Assembly: GCA_027625915.1 (NCBI GenBank)
Contig: JANTQA010000063.1
Coordinates: forward strand, 4,669,501-4,733,500
Length of the DNA stretch: 64,000 nt
Direction: 5' to 3'
DNA from: Anaeramoeba flamelloides
Taxonomy: Eukaryota > Metamonada > Anaeramoebidae
The translations under genes were made by a program, and so were the position numbers. How positions within the stretch are numbered: the first letter of the stretch is position 1; the number at the start of each line of letters is the position of its first letter. Positions 52,201 to 63,250 of the stretch are shown here, piece by piece. The notes under the pieces were generated by a model. The model ran no database searches, was not told the origin of the DNA, and saw nothing but the letters and a program-made list of their open reading frames with translations.

Positions 52201-55143
52201 CTCTACTAAGTGAGGATGAGTTGTAATTTACAGAGTTTGATTCTTAAATAAAAGAAATTATTATTTAAATAAAAGAAATTACACAGCAATTTTTCCTAAT
52301 ATCAAAAAATAATAATGATTTCCTGACTTATTTTTATTTCCTGGATTGTTTTCAATACTATCACTGTGAAAAAATTTAACTTGACCATTTTGGAAAAAAA
52401 GTTCTGTACGTTTTTTAATTCAAAACCTTAATAGAACCTGAAAATGAAAAGCAAGATCAATTAATAAAAGAAAAAATTTACTTTGATAAAAGACAAAATG
52501 GAGGATTCAACACATTAACAGTTTTTTCTGAATACTATCTTTTGCTAAGAGTTTTTCGTGATTTATCTAATCATTTAAAAATTTGTTTCGAAATTTGACT
52601 ATTTTCGAGATCTTGAAAACAACCCCAACATTGCATTTCGAAAATAAAGTAGGACAACATTGTACTTGTTGATTTGATTCAAAATAATATGATTGAATTA
52701 TTCTTTGAAGTTAATTCGTTTCTTCTTTTTATTGATTTTCAGGTTTCTGTGAAGCTATTAAGGATTTTCCAATTAAAAATCGCGTTATAACTTTTTTAAC
52801 TGTTTCAATTTTTTTCCCAAATGGTAGTCTTTTTTTTTTTTATTTAAATGTTATTGTTTGTAATCTTAAAATTCCAACTTTAAAAAAACACACATAATAT
52901 ATTTATACAAACATCATATAAGAATTTCTGAAATTAAAATGAACAAACTAAAAGAATAATTGATTTCATGTAATAAAGATTAGAAGTAAATGAAAAAAAA
53001 AAAAAAAAATGGAAAAACTTTTTCCCATTTAAAAATCTAATATCACATATGTGCAAAAATCAATGCCTTAATTTTGTAAGTGTTGTTAATAAGTTTGTAA
53101 TTTTTCCAAAAACTATGATATTTTTTAGGTTCTTCCCATAGGGGAGTACCTAAAAGTTATCATCGTTTTTGGAAGTTAACGAGACGAGAGGTGGTTCAAC
53201 AAAAGTAACTGAGATTTACCGTTAGTTTTTTTTTAATTTGAGAAATGAAAAAAAAACTAGGCATTCTACTGCACTTGACGGACAGTTGACAGACACTTTT
53301 CGTTAGGTTTTTTTTAATTGTTGAAATGAATCGAAAATTTATTAAATTTTCTTTTCATTTCAGAAACCTCAAAAAACCTTGATTAATTATCCAGAATATA
53401 AAAGAATTGAGTAAAATCCAAGACTTTTGTCTATTCATTTAAATTCTGGAAAATCGTCAGTTAGCTTTTCTTGATTTTTCTACTTATTTGTAAAATCAAT
53501 AGATTTTCGTTAGTTTTTCTGGAGGTTTTCTATTTTATTTCTAAAGTAAAAAAAACATAACGAAAATCTATCGATTTTCCAAACAAACAGAAAACTCAAG
53601 AAAAGCTAACGACACTTCCAACTTTTGGAATTCAGCAACTCATTAAATGTGTACTTATATATTTCATTTTTCAATTCTTTTAAATCTTTTGAATGCCAGT
53701 TGATTTTATTATTTATTCTTTGATTAAATTTGATTAATTTTTCTAAATAAGGAAGAGATAAATTTCCTAATTTATTTTTTAATTTAAATTTCTTTTTATT
53801 TACTGAAATTATCATATTTTCAATTTTAAATTCTGTTTTGTAAATAAGAATTGGTGTATTTCAGTTTATTTTGCATATTTCATTAATGATATGAATTAAT
53901 CCAAGAATTTAAATAATTTATCGTTTTTATTTGATAATTAAAAATTTCTAATCCATAGGTTAATGACTTTTAATATAAAAGATTTAAATAATCTAATTTT
54001 TAAACTATTATTCAGAGAATTGTTATTGAATAATAGTTTGCAGTTATTATATGTTTCTTTAGCCTTTTTTAAATTATAAATTATATGTGCAATTTTATCT
54101 AAATAAATACCCAAATATTTAATCTTTTTTAAATCTTTTGATATAACTGTTTTATCTTTTATTTGGTTTTAATCCAAATTGAATAATAATTTCATATCTT
54201 GAATTTAATTTTTGATTTATATTCCCTTTTCTAATTAAAATTAAATCATCTGCAAAAATTTGACAATGATTAGTTATTGATATAATTTTTAATACAAGAA
54301 AATGAGGAATAAGAGCAAATATTAGAGTTTAACCCTCCTTAACAAACAATTTTTTGCAATGTTGGTTTGTCCTATATTCTAAAAGTTACAAAATCCACAA
54401 GCGATTTGATTTTAAATTGAAACAGTATAAACTAGAAAAAGAGGTGTACGCATTTGAAAAAATTACTAATTTTTCGAGAAATCTTCTTGACTGATTCATA
54501 TAAATTTTTAACTTTTTAATAATTCTCAATACAAATTGAAAAAAAATTCCTCTTAATTCAAGGATTGTAATAGATTCAATTATCAAGAGAATTGGCCAGA
54601 TTCACCTTTTCAATTTGTTCAAAAATATCTCTAGTTTCAAGTTCGTTAATGATTTGAACACATATATAATAATGTAATGTGTTGAAATTTTGTATAGAAA
54701 AAAATAACCATTCTTTATTTTTTTTGCTTTTTCTGATATCCTTATTTGAAATTTTTTTTATTATTAATTATTTAAAAACAATAAAAGGTGTTTATGTACT
54801 TTGGGCACTTGTTCCTTCTCATGTCTATGAATCATTGGGCGTTTCATATTACCCAAATCAATATTGGGCGATTACAATTCCAGTTTATATATGGGTATGT
54901 GCGCTATGTGTACTGTTTTGGGAATTTTCATTAAGCTTGGTTCAAACAAAATCTTTATCAGATTATCAATGTGTTACAGATTCTTCTGCAATTTTTAGAG
55001 AGGAAGAAAATGATCAATATAGCGAAATATTTAGATTTGAACATTCTTTGCCACTAATTGAAGATATACCCTTACAAACAATTAATAAACTACTTTTTGA
55101 TGATAAAATTAAGAAAATTGATTCAGATAATGAATCGGATTAA
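49251..55143 (+). CDS. PIGP: PIG-P, subunit of GPI-GlcNAc transferase, with long N-terminal extension
   Basis: PIG-P is a small two-helix membrane subunit of the ER complex that adds GlcNAc to phosphatidylinositol, the first step of GPI-anchor synthesis. Exons: 49251-49466 (72 codons, weak donor GTACCG), 49627-50197 (donor GTTTGT) and 54788-55143 (acceptor AAAAG, stop TAA). The last junction splits one Gly codon and restores the first helix without a gap: YGFALWIISWIGYG joined to VYVLWALVP, aligning with human [23 protein letters not shown]-type sequence position by position. Then come LGVSYYPNQYWAITIPVY (the family signature, about 279-296) and the conserved tail SLPLIEDIPLQTINKLLF. The predicted length is 380 residues against roughly 130-160 in animals. 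The extra 245 N-terminal residues are charged (EETQDLPYSGEVLNRFLRIM) with Ser and Glu/Gln-rich tracts and match nothing I know. The last intron is 4590 bases. Confidence 0.9.
51940..52110. repeat. Dispersed repeat R5, copy 1
   Basis: Shares with 60345-60545, in the same orientation, the order ATCA-CTATTCTC, TTATTTCTT, AAAGRTYAATTAT and a block ending in an AACAAAGTTT/AACATAGTTT variant. Weakly conserved and non-coding. Confidence 0.45.
52380..52840. repeat. Dispersed repeat R4, copy 3 (inside PIG-P intron)
   Basis: Blocks GCAAGATCAATTAATAAAAG, AAAAGACAAAATGGAGGATT, CAACACATTAACAG and TTTGACTATTTTCGAGATCT match the 48.4 kb copy in order. Confidence 0.6.
53215..53630. repeat. Modular hairpin cluster H5 (inside PIG-P intron)
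   Basis: It contains the linker CTAGGCATTCTACTGCACTT followed by GACGGACAG, a T-rich hairpin (GTTAGGTTTTTTTTAATTGT type), a pair with CCAGAATATAAAAGAATTGA and ATTTAAATTCTGG arms, and the AGAAAACTCAAGAAAAGCTA type. Its right edge ACGACACTTCC joins directly to LINE copy 4. Confidence 0.75.
53630..54335 (-). mobile_element. LINE reverse-transcriptase fragment, copy 4 (truncated at both ends)
   Basis: Read on the minus strand from 54335: LIPHFLVLKIISITNHCQ, then FADDLILIRKGN (motif C), IIIQFGLKPN, an EYLG-type block, and finally VNKKKFKLKNKLGNLSLPYL ending in NELLNSKSW. The last part is nearly identical to 42690-42880 of copy 3, which makes these two the closest pair. Several frame breaks. The 3' side stops abruptly at the hairpin cluster. 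Antisense to PIG-P, inside its last intron. Confidence 0.78.
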
Positions 55144-55286: not shown

Positions 55287-55640
55287 TGTTAGGTTTTCCA
55301 GAATTTAAAAGAATTGAGTAAAATCCAAGAATTTTGTCTATTCTTTTAAATTCTGGAAAACCGCCATTAGCTTTTTTTTAATTTGAGAAATAAAAAGAAA
55401 ATTTTTGAAATTTTCTTTTAATTTCTCAAATCAAAAAAAACCTAGGCACTCTACGACATTGACGGCACTTTCCATGAGGTTTTTTTTAATTTAAAAGAAT
55501 AGAGAAATTTCAAAGATTCTACTCTATTCTTTTGAATTCTGGGAAAGGTTCGTTGGGTTTTTTTTTATTTAAGAAATTAAAAGAAACCTAGGCACTACCC
55601 TACACTTTATAAACTCTACGGCACTTACTGAAACACGAAA
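55287..55640. repeat. Modular hairpin cluster H6
   Basis: Begins GTTAGGTTTTCCAGAATTTA, pairing with TTTTAAATTCTGGAAAACCG. Next is a T-rich hairpin (AGAAAATTTTTGAAATTTTC), then the linker CTAGGCACTCTACGACATTG and ACGGCACTTTCC, a third degraded hairpin and a final linker with CTCTACGGCACTTACTG. It lies 144 bases after the PIG-P stop. Confidence 0.75.
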
Positions 55641-62100: not shown

Positions 62101-63098
62101 CTAAAAAAAATGAAGAAACGACAGTTTTGTTTTAATTTGATTTGAAATTGGCTTTGTTTTGTGACCAGAAAAAAGGGGATTTATTTTTTGGAAAAAAAAA
62201 AAAAGGTTTGTGTTTTGATGATTGAAACAAAAGGAAGAAAAATGATAATTTGCGAATTAAATATCTTATTCGAAGGGATTATTTAAAGAGTGTTTTTTTT
62301 TTGAATTCTTGTGATTTGAGTTTCCTCTAACCTCAAAATAAAGGGATCAATATTTTTATTGATCTTTCCATGAGAAATGAAAAAATTCAAAATTCCAAAT
62401 CATTAAAGTTTATGGATTCTTAAAGGAAATTAATAATTTAAGCTGAATTTTACAGAAATAAAAGAATTAAATTTGACTTTTGTCTCTTCAATAATCTTGA
62501 GAAAGTTGAAGGAAACTATTGTTCGATTTATTTTTTAACAAATAACTAATGTCATTCAAAGGTTCAAACAGTTTTGGTTTTTTGAAATTGTTCCAAATTT
62601 TCTTGGGAATTACAAGATCAAAATTCAACTTCTCTCAATTTTGAAGTTTTTACATTTCAACCTTTTAAAAAGATATAATTTAAACAACTTAACACCTTTT
62701 TTTGTAATAAGAGTTTCAGGTTATTGAAAGTTAGCAAATATTTTTCTTTTTTATAAAACTTTTCAAAATTTCAATTAAATTCAAAAGGTTATCTTTTGTG
62801 AATTATATTTTTTACCTTTTTTTTGGCTTATAAAGGTTTGTAGAGATTTTGGAAATGTGTAAAATATAATTGAGTATCAGAGAACTGAAATCTTTTAAAT
62901 CGTAAGCCTGAAAGATGGAAATTGTCTTGAATCTTTATATGGTGAAGATTTTGCAATAAATCAAAAAAAAAGAAATTGTATGTAAGTAATTTTGTAGTGA
63001 TTCATTCTTGTGGTGTTTCTTTTTTCATTAAAAAAAGAATAGGTTTTAATAAGAAATTGACTATCATCTTGTTTTTAGATAAGAACAAAAAAAAAAAA
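62101..63098. other. AT-rich spacer between hydrolase gene and tRNA locus
   Basis: The upstream region of the hydrolase gene. No gene, repeat family member or structured element was recognised. The last dozen bases (63087-63098) are an A-run that serves as the T-run terminator of the minus-strand tRNA locus. Confidence 0.6.
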
Positions 63099-63250
63099 GC
63101 ACAAGAATGGAATTGAACCACTGACCTCTTTGCATAATGACCGTGTTTAATAGTCACTGCCCACCAGGGCGAAGGTTTGTGATGATGATAAACCTTCTAA
63201 GGATCGAACTTAGAAATTGCAAATTGCTCTACGGGCTGAGCTACTCGTGC
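63099..63250 (-). tRNA. tRNA locus with long internal insertion (possible nested or permuted second tRNA)
   Basis: Read from 63250 on the minus strand: acceptor strand GCACGAG, TA, D-arm GCTC-AGCCCGTA-GAGC (a good A box). At the far end come AGGTC, T-arm AGTGG-TTCAATT-CCATT (a good B box) and CTTGTGC, which pairs with GCACGAG over 7 bp with one G-U. TTTGC (63222 region) and GCAAA (63130 region) can form the anticodon stem. A T-run follows immediately (63098-63087), as expected for a Pol III terminator. Between the stem halves lies an insertion of about 80 bases that itself contains a perfect T-arm (CTAAG-TTCGATC-CTTAG) and a 7 bp hairpin AAGGTTT/AAACCTT. The anticodon cannot be assigned: the expected U33 is missing in the simple reading, and D-loop G18 is replaced by C. 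It may be an intron-containing tRNA, a nested pair, or a pseudogene. Confidence 0.6.

Follow-up and report, generated by a model that had tools for sequence, protein, structure and literature searches.

A 2014 review puts the number of known circularly permuted tRNA genes at 34, found in six algae and one archaeon (PMC3978253). It describes the promoter boxes of these genes as inverted and unsuited to TFIIIC, and both the origin of the genes and their transcription with inverted A and B boxes are left open there (PMC3978253). Excised tRNA introns of metazoans can be circular, in which case they are known as tricRNAs (PMC6614914).

The locus described here lies in Anaeramoeba flamelloides, in a stretch of 64,000 nucleotides that was analysed as a whole and is referred to below as the window. 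It is a tRNA-like Pol III unit of 152 bases on the minus strand, running from 63250 to 63099, and it holds one tRNA-shaped element inside another, with the inner one in permuted order. A sequence-only reading of the same DNA had described an outer 7-bp acceptor stem, an A box, a B box and a T-run, all of which are present on that strand. The same reading had reported a second, perfect T-arm followed by a strand, AAGGTTT, that pairs over 7 bp with AAACCTT, and this is present as well. The parts of the unit, followed by its terminator, are as follows:

63244..63250, minus strand: 5' strand of the outer acceptor stem, GCACGAG, pairing at 7 of 7 positions (one G.U) with 63099-63105
63226..63241, minus strand: outer D-arm and A box, GCTC AGCCCGTA GAGC, with a D-loop lacking the usual GG
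63218..63224, minus strand: 5' strand of the outer anticodon-stem stub, ATTTGCA, pairing with 63128-63134, with an A27.G mismatch at its base
63197..63213, minus strand: inner T-arm, CTAAG-TTCGATC-CTTAG, which doubles as a B box and is backed by the T-arm rule, the shuffles and the family stems
63190..63196, minus strand: 3' strand of the inner acceptor stem, AAGGTTT, adjoining the inner T-arm and pairing with 63172-63178
63179..63189, minus strand: 11-base spacer between the inner acceptor strands, ATCATCATCAC, placed where a permuted tRNA has its intervening sequence
63172..63178, minus strand: 5' strand of the inner acceptor stem, AAACCTT, pairing with 63190-63196
63160..63169, minus strand: degenerate equivalent of the inner D-arm, CCC-TGGT-GGG, a hairpin of 3-4 bp with GG still in the loop
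63136..63158, minus strand: equivalent of the inner anticodon arm, AGTGACT-ATTAAACAC-GGTCATT, with a 9-base loop and a compensatory A-U to U-A change in L018 and L019
63128..63134, minus strand: 3' strand of the outer anticodon-stem stub, TGCAAAG, pairing with 63218-63224
63106..63122, minus strand: outer T-arm, AGTGG-TTCAATT-CCATT, a second B box whose stems are kept across 23 genes
63099..63105, minus strand: 3' strand of the outer acceptor stem, CTTGTGC, pairing with 63244-63250
63087..63098, minus strand: T12 run, a Pol III terminator directly after the end of the unit

The last inner hairpin of the unit has a stem of 6-7 bp, and its putative anticodon loop, first given as 11 bases, comes down to 9 once a closing T.G or T-A pair is counted. 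Neither ARAGORN at its defaults nor Rfam at the gathering threshold returned a match anywhere in the 64-kb window. In a permissive scan, covariance scoring of the outer cloverleaf gave 35.9 bits with the Rfam tRNA model (gathering threshold 29) and placed an 86-base insertion in the anticodon arm. T-arms were recognised by a rule of 5 pairs, a TTCRANY loop and a G-C closing pair. On both strands of the 64-kb window this rule finds two T-arms, both inside the nested unit, of which only the inner one has an abutting stem. In 200,000 dinucleotide shuffles of the insertion a canonical T-arm appeared 41 times, and a T-arm with an abutting, closed 7-bp stem did not appear at all. Folded to minimum energy, the 152 bases of the unit take on the nested structure of the sequence-only reading (-41.8 kcal/mol, z -2.8), and 1 of 500 shuffles reached an energy as low. 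The G+C content of the window is about 19-27% in 4-kb steps. Elsewhere, the window encodes an exportin-7-like protein and a protein with a Fip1 motif, which mark the DNA as eukaryotic, and hairpins at 53459-53611 and 55354-55456 match several microRNA-precursor families, all below cut-offs; these are probably inverted repeats.

The one genome compared is the 254-Mb assembly of 76 contigs to which the window belongs. A short 18S motif occurs in it once, and a longer form, as found in animals, fungi and plants, does not occur. A DNA search of it found the unit at 12 places, and a query with a distant copy returned the same 12. Nine are close copies (family A, L009-L017) and three are more distant (family B, L018-L020), one of which, L020, is broken and has lost its 5' end. 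With E up to 1, the Rfam tRNA model matches five of these 12 copies (L009-L012 and L018), and no other Rfam family matches within the 12 units. A search with the outer D-arm, allowing up to 2 mismatches, gave 24 places: 11 were units already known, 12 were new genes, and the remaining one was the inner D-arm belonging to one of these new genes. A look for other copies in the same genome, suggested along with the first description of the locus, has in this way yielded 12 copies and 12 genes with different insertions; the family size of 24 (one broken) is a lower bound that is tied to the outer D-arm.

All 12 new genes keep the outer frame, which is recognisable by GCxC at the start, an AGC-NN-GTA D-loop without GG, a TTTC...GAAA stub, AGGTC, the T-arm and a GCGC or GTGC end. 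Ten of them (family C, L068-L076 and L079) have the inner acceptor GCCCAAT/ATTGGGC and an inner D-arm that we take to be of the Leu/Ser type. The remaining two form family D. The payload of L077 reads ATGGG-TTCGAGC-CCCAT, AGAGGCG, a spacer, CGCCTCT, TA, GCTC-AGTCGGTA-GAGC, G and TCCAG-CTGTTAA-CTGTA, which by its sequence is a tRNA-Asn(GUU) body in permuted order, and L078 (G000:C29:9849389-9849470), which is related to it, has CTGTAAA, Tyr(GUA). When permuted order combined with TAGCTCAG D-arms was surveyed, L077 and L078 were the sole genes to turn up, and viral contigs scanned with an inner motif gave 0 matches. Representative outer frames of A/B, C and D are 69-85% alike and only 60-64% identical to the best of six ordinary tRNAs parsed, and the outer frame is therefore regarded as common to all of them. 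One shared outer frame carries three different payloads. A run of at least 6 T starts no more than 11 bases from the end of the unit in 23 of 23 units (one flank being read for units of identical sequence), and internal runs never exceed 5 T.

The payload runs in the order T-arm, 3' acceptor strand, short spacer, 5' acceptor strand, D-arm and anticodon arm. When family C and D payloads were made circular and then cut within the spacer, ARAGORN called a tRNA in 12 of 12 (nine distinct sequences), compared with 0 of 2,400 shuffled payloads and 0 of nine payloads tested in DNA order. Six of these circles, rotated through all positions, were called only if the opening lay in the spacer or at most 11 bases away from it. 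The nested permuted order proposed for the window locus is therefore also found in 12 other genes that share its outer frame. Reordering the payloads of families A and B alike gave 0 calls in 11, though the lengths of T-arm, acceptor and linker agree, and the circle of the window payload drew no call when rotated through every position. The expectation that the circularised insertion would be a tRNA in normal order is accordingly borne out for families C and D and not for the subfamily of the window copy (A/B). The order typical of a permuted tRNA, with the 3' half upstream of the 5' half and an intervening sequence at the acceptor, is seen in C and D; a tRNA recognisable after reordering is not seen in the window copy and its subfamily. 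ARAGORN, when allowed introns, also called 11 of the 12 whole C/D loci in natural order (L068 gave none). Seven of these calls were of one outer tRNA with a long intron and four (L071, L076, L077 and L078) of an intronless tRNA in the second half, and we take both kinds of call to show part of the nested gene. Circularisation would leave a variable region of 5 bases for family A, of 7 for B, of 13-18 for C and of 10-11 for D. On the 5' side, family D has CTTGA-AGGTC or TTTGA-TGGTC, which would leave a 5-base variable loop if the payload were joined in the anticodon loop. The inner anticodon loops of C and D have 7 bases and U33 in 11 of 12 genes, and that of L072 has 8 bases.

The explanation we favour, with somewhat better than even confidence, is that of a Pol III family in which the outer frame carries, in place of its anticodon loop, a circularly permuted tRNA body that would be excised and circularised. 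TFIIIC would use the outer A box together with the inner B box, so that the permuted tRNA would receive its promoter boxes in the right order. The spacing counted between these two boxes comes close to the A-B box distance usual in tRNA genes. Of the ten family C genes, seven (L068-L070 and L072-L075) have A instead of C56 in the outer T-loop, which then reads TTAAAAT or TTAAACT; their inner T-loop is still TTCGAAT, and for this reason the outer B box looks dispensable. The outer fold may then present the payload in the manner of a tRNA intron, the payload would be cut out at the stub, and its ends would be ligated into a circle. RNase P and RNase Z would finally cut the spacer out at the inner acceptor, leaving a tRNA in normal order. 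The spacer varies from 8 to 15 bases among the 23 genes. In L071 it starts, after the inner 3' acceptor strand, with ACCA, which would equal a discriminator and an encoded CCA; other spacers do not start this way.

Textbook excision is opposed by two absences, that of a bulge-helix-bulge and that of an outer anticodon (in 21 of 23 genes). At the payload ends a 4-bp central helix can be formed, under lax rules, in 2 of 18 distinct insertions, and none is conserved. The outer RNA has the acceptor, D and T arms of an intron-containing tRNA, but its D-loops lack GG. A single excision leaving a 7-base loop with U33 and purine 37 is possible only in L077 and L079, and with the other 21 of 23 units offering no such loop, a single canonical intron was rejected; the earlier view of the outer RNA as an ordinary tRNA with an intron is not supported as stated. 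The call that ARAGORN makes on the whole window unit (Asn, with a 78-base intron) was also dropped, as it has C at position 33 and relies on a stretch that is missing in family B.

If 7-base loops are assumed, the anticodon positions of family A read CUU or AUU, with eight copies giving CUU, and those of family B read CGU. Family C anticodons are read as UUU (seven genes, including L072), UCA, UUA and UAA, and those of family D as GUU (L077) and GUA (L078). Unlike in decoding tRNAs, the anticodon positions differ between near-identical copies. As the inner body of the window subfamily has no normal D-arm or anticodon loop, its RNA probably does not decode as a tRNA, whether it ends up as a circle or stays uncut, and the payload of this subfamily has probably moved to a non-decoding role with its fold kept. 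Ordinary-type Lys(CUU) sequences occur at 13 places in the genome, of which L025 reads as a tRNA, and Asn-type sequences at 26, of which L082 and L083 read as tRNAs. An intronless pattern found no ordinary tRNA-Tyr, and intron-containing Tyr genes would escape this pattern; the nested payload of L078 has the only Tyr(GUA) anticodon loop recognised so far in a tRNA context. Besides L078 there are 14 places with CTGTARA, nine of which were read (L080, L081 and L084-L090) without one being called a tRNA, and the remaining five are repeats of an 18-base match that had been read. The sequence AGAGCACAGGACTGTAAA, which resembles a Tyr D-stem and anticodon loop, has five exact copies (G000 C24:1324588, C33:9043012, C35:3093, C37:8263277 and C57:2205536); two were read (L080 and L081), neither was called a tRNA, and this is some other repeat. 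The loop of L071 (G000:C24:10280106) is CTTCAGC, anticodon UCA, and that of L076 (C72:1000447) is CTTTAGC, anticodon UUA; these would read the stop codons UGA and UAA. Tentatively, the outer frame may be a reusable tRNA-like carrier that serves as promoter and splicing scaffold and has been loaded with at least three unrelated permuted payloads, some of which would decode UGA or UAA or supply an isoacceptor such as Tyr, while the window payload would be a circular noncoding RNA.

Alternatively, the RNA may never be cut and may act as a stable noncoding RNA in the shape of two tRNAs, for instance as a decoy, a regulator or an RNP scaffold, both folds being kept for their shape. We regard this as possible but rather doubtful. 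The drifting anticodon positions, the lack of a splice motif and the outer anticodon missing in 21 of 23 genes are all consistent with it, as is the preservation of old duplicates in the window subfamily at 93-98% identity despite an inner D-arm and anticodon loop that are not tRNA-like. However, families C and D keep full tRNA bodies and, in 11 of 12 genes, 7-base anticodon loops with U33, and variable regions of class-appropriate length result only after circularisation. Vault RNA and other noncoding RNAs with tRNA promoters likewise have Pol III boxes, paired ends and a variable middle. An identification as vault RNA is unsupported, tRNA being the only Rfam family to match the A/B units; a search for vault proteins found no match, but its controls gave none either.

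Pairing across the family was assessed in the 23 intact units (19 distinct sequences), with L020 left out. Counted over distinct stems, 55 of 56 cells are paired in the outer acceptor (8 stems), 25 of 25 in the outer T stem (5), 40 of 43 in the outer stub (7), 34 of 35 in the inner T stem (7), 40 of 42 in the inner acceptor (6), where the seventh pair is U-A or C-G, 13 of 13 in the inner D stem (4) and 32 of 36 in the inner anticodon stem (6). The outer D stem (4 of 4 cells) is invariant across the 23 units and is thus uninformative. Compensatory changes occur in the outer acceptor, outer T, inner T, inner acceptor and inner anticodon stems. The inner T-arm is kept in all 23 parsed units, so homologues without it, which would have spoken against the nested arrangement, were not seen. 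Across three unrelated payload acceptor stems there are zero bases between inner T-stem and acceptor, and the GG in the inner D-loop is likewise retained: all six kinds of inner D-loop in the 23 units have GG, and all four outer kinds lack it. An alignment of families A and B (11 units, 10 distinct) has 97.4% of 460 cells paired and three pairs changed on both sides, one each in the outer acceptor, the inner acceptor and the last inner hairpin. Here the number of paired cells, the number of cells changed on both sides and the covariation score all beat 500 of 500 shuffles. Two further measures did not beat shuffling: 134 of 500 shuffles had at least as many pairs with changes on both sides, and 468 of 500 did as well in pair types.

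These counts bear on the suggestion that the locus is made up of two tandem tRNA genes with exchanged 3' halves, processed separately to chimeric or split products, so that the nested pairing would be incidental. Along the DNA the elements do follow each other as in a pair of tandem tRNAs, with A and B boxes in sequence, and the four intronless second-half calls among 12 C/D loci fit this. Read as tandem, however, the acceptor strands pair in only 148 of 322 cells (81 of 161 and 67 of 161), compared with 320 of 322 when read as nested (outer 159 of 161, inner 161 of 161), with changes on both sides, and we consider the tandem arrangement unlikely.

The surroundings of the copies provide a separate line of evidence. 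Old duplicates in family A hold the unit at 93-98% identity in flanks that have decayed. In 100-base flank bins, with the incomplete bins at the ends disregarded, L009 and L012 are 55-87% identical around units that are 98% identical, L009 and L010 are 42-94% identical around 98%, and L009 and L014 are 42-85% identical around 96%, with homology stopping just downstream of the unit in the last pair. For L014 and L017, and within family B, flanks are about as alike as units and there is no unit excess. Four family C genes compared pairwise have units 78-94% identical and 300-base flanks 31-64% identical, where unrelated 300-mers average 37% and reach at most 47%. The approximately 1.3 kb upstream of the L009 unit is 61-94% identical to L010 or L012 and has no open frame above 120 aa listed.

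A tRNA-derived SINE or a decayed tRNA dimer, spread by retroposition, would account for a dispersed multi-copy unit with tRNA promoter boxes, for the lost 5' end of L020, for the mostly unrelated flanks of family C and for the finding that L011, L016, and family B compared with A, have little in common beyond the unit. Against this, only 24 copies were found, their stems are kept by compensation, and flanking DNA is shared over 0.3-2.5 kb by several copies of family A, which are therefore segmental duplicates that spread together with their surroundings. This origin appears very unlikely. Least credible is one tRNA-Lys(CUU)-like gene in which an intron lies on either side of the loop CTCTTAA. 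Joined accordingly, the window copy would give 72 bases that ARAGORN accepts (as Asn, anticodon AUU), and eight family A copies would give CUU. This reading was rejected on the grounds that what would be the anticodon is the variable part, that ordinary-type Lys(CUU) sequences occur at 13 places and that families C and D do not fit, to which can be added C at position 37 in L019 and L020 and stem changes that favour the 9-base loop.

Because of the shuffles, the 24-copy family, the 12 of 12 ARAGORN calls, the pairing found only in the nested arrangement and the preservation of the unit relative to its flanks, we conclude that the nesting of a permuted tRNA in a tRNA-like frame is a genuine gene architecture, of which the window copy is a diverged member. 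If this is true, a permuted tRNA housed in the anticodon arm of a second tRNA frame would escape the promoter problem of inverted boxes, and the arrangement would suggest that permuted tRNAs originated when one tRNA was captured as an intron of another. A text search of the openly licensed literature found no earlier description of nested or embedded tRNA genes.

The arrangement would work like a permuted tRNA gene and is not a plain member of that class: families C and D have the order and not the junction motif, and the window copy is not recognisable as a tRNA after reordering. As in the circularly permuted tRNA genes of Cyanidioschyzon merolae, other unicellular algae and one archaeon, the 3' part comes before the 5' part and a short intervening sequence lies between the acceptor strands, so that termini are to be joined and the spacer removed (PMC3978253). 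Here, in contrast, the leader joins with the trailer to make a second tRNA-like frame, the A box of the outer frame comes ahead of the B box of the inner T-arm, no bulge-helix-bulge is conserved, and in families A-C the break falls between the anticodon arm and the T-arm. With intron-containing pre-tRNAs and tricRNAs the unit shares an insertion in the anticodon arm of a tRNA fold, but here the insertion is itself tRNA-shaped and the outer exons have no proper anticodon loop in 21 of 23 genes. The likeness to vault RNA and other tRNA-promoter noncoding RNAs extends to Pol III boxes, paired ends and a variable middle, whereas here that middle is a permuted tRNA body and the A/B units match tRNA alone in Rfam.
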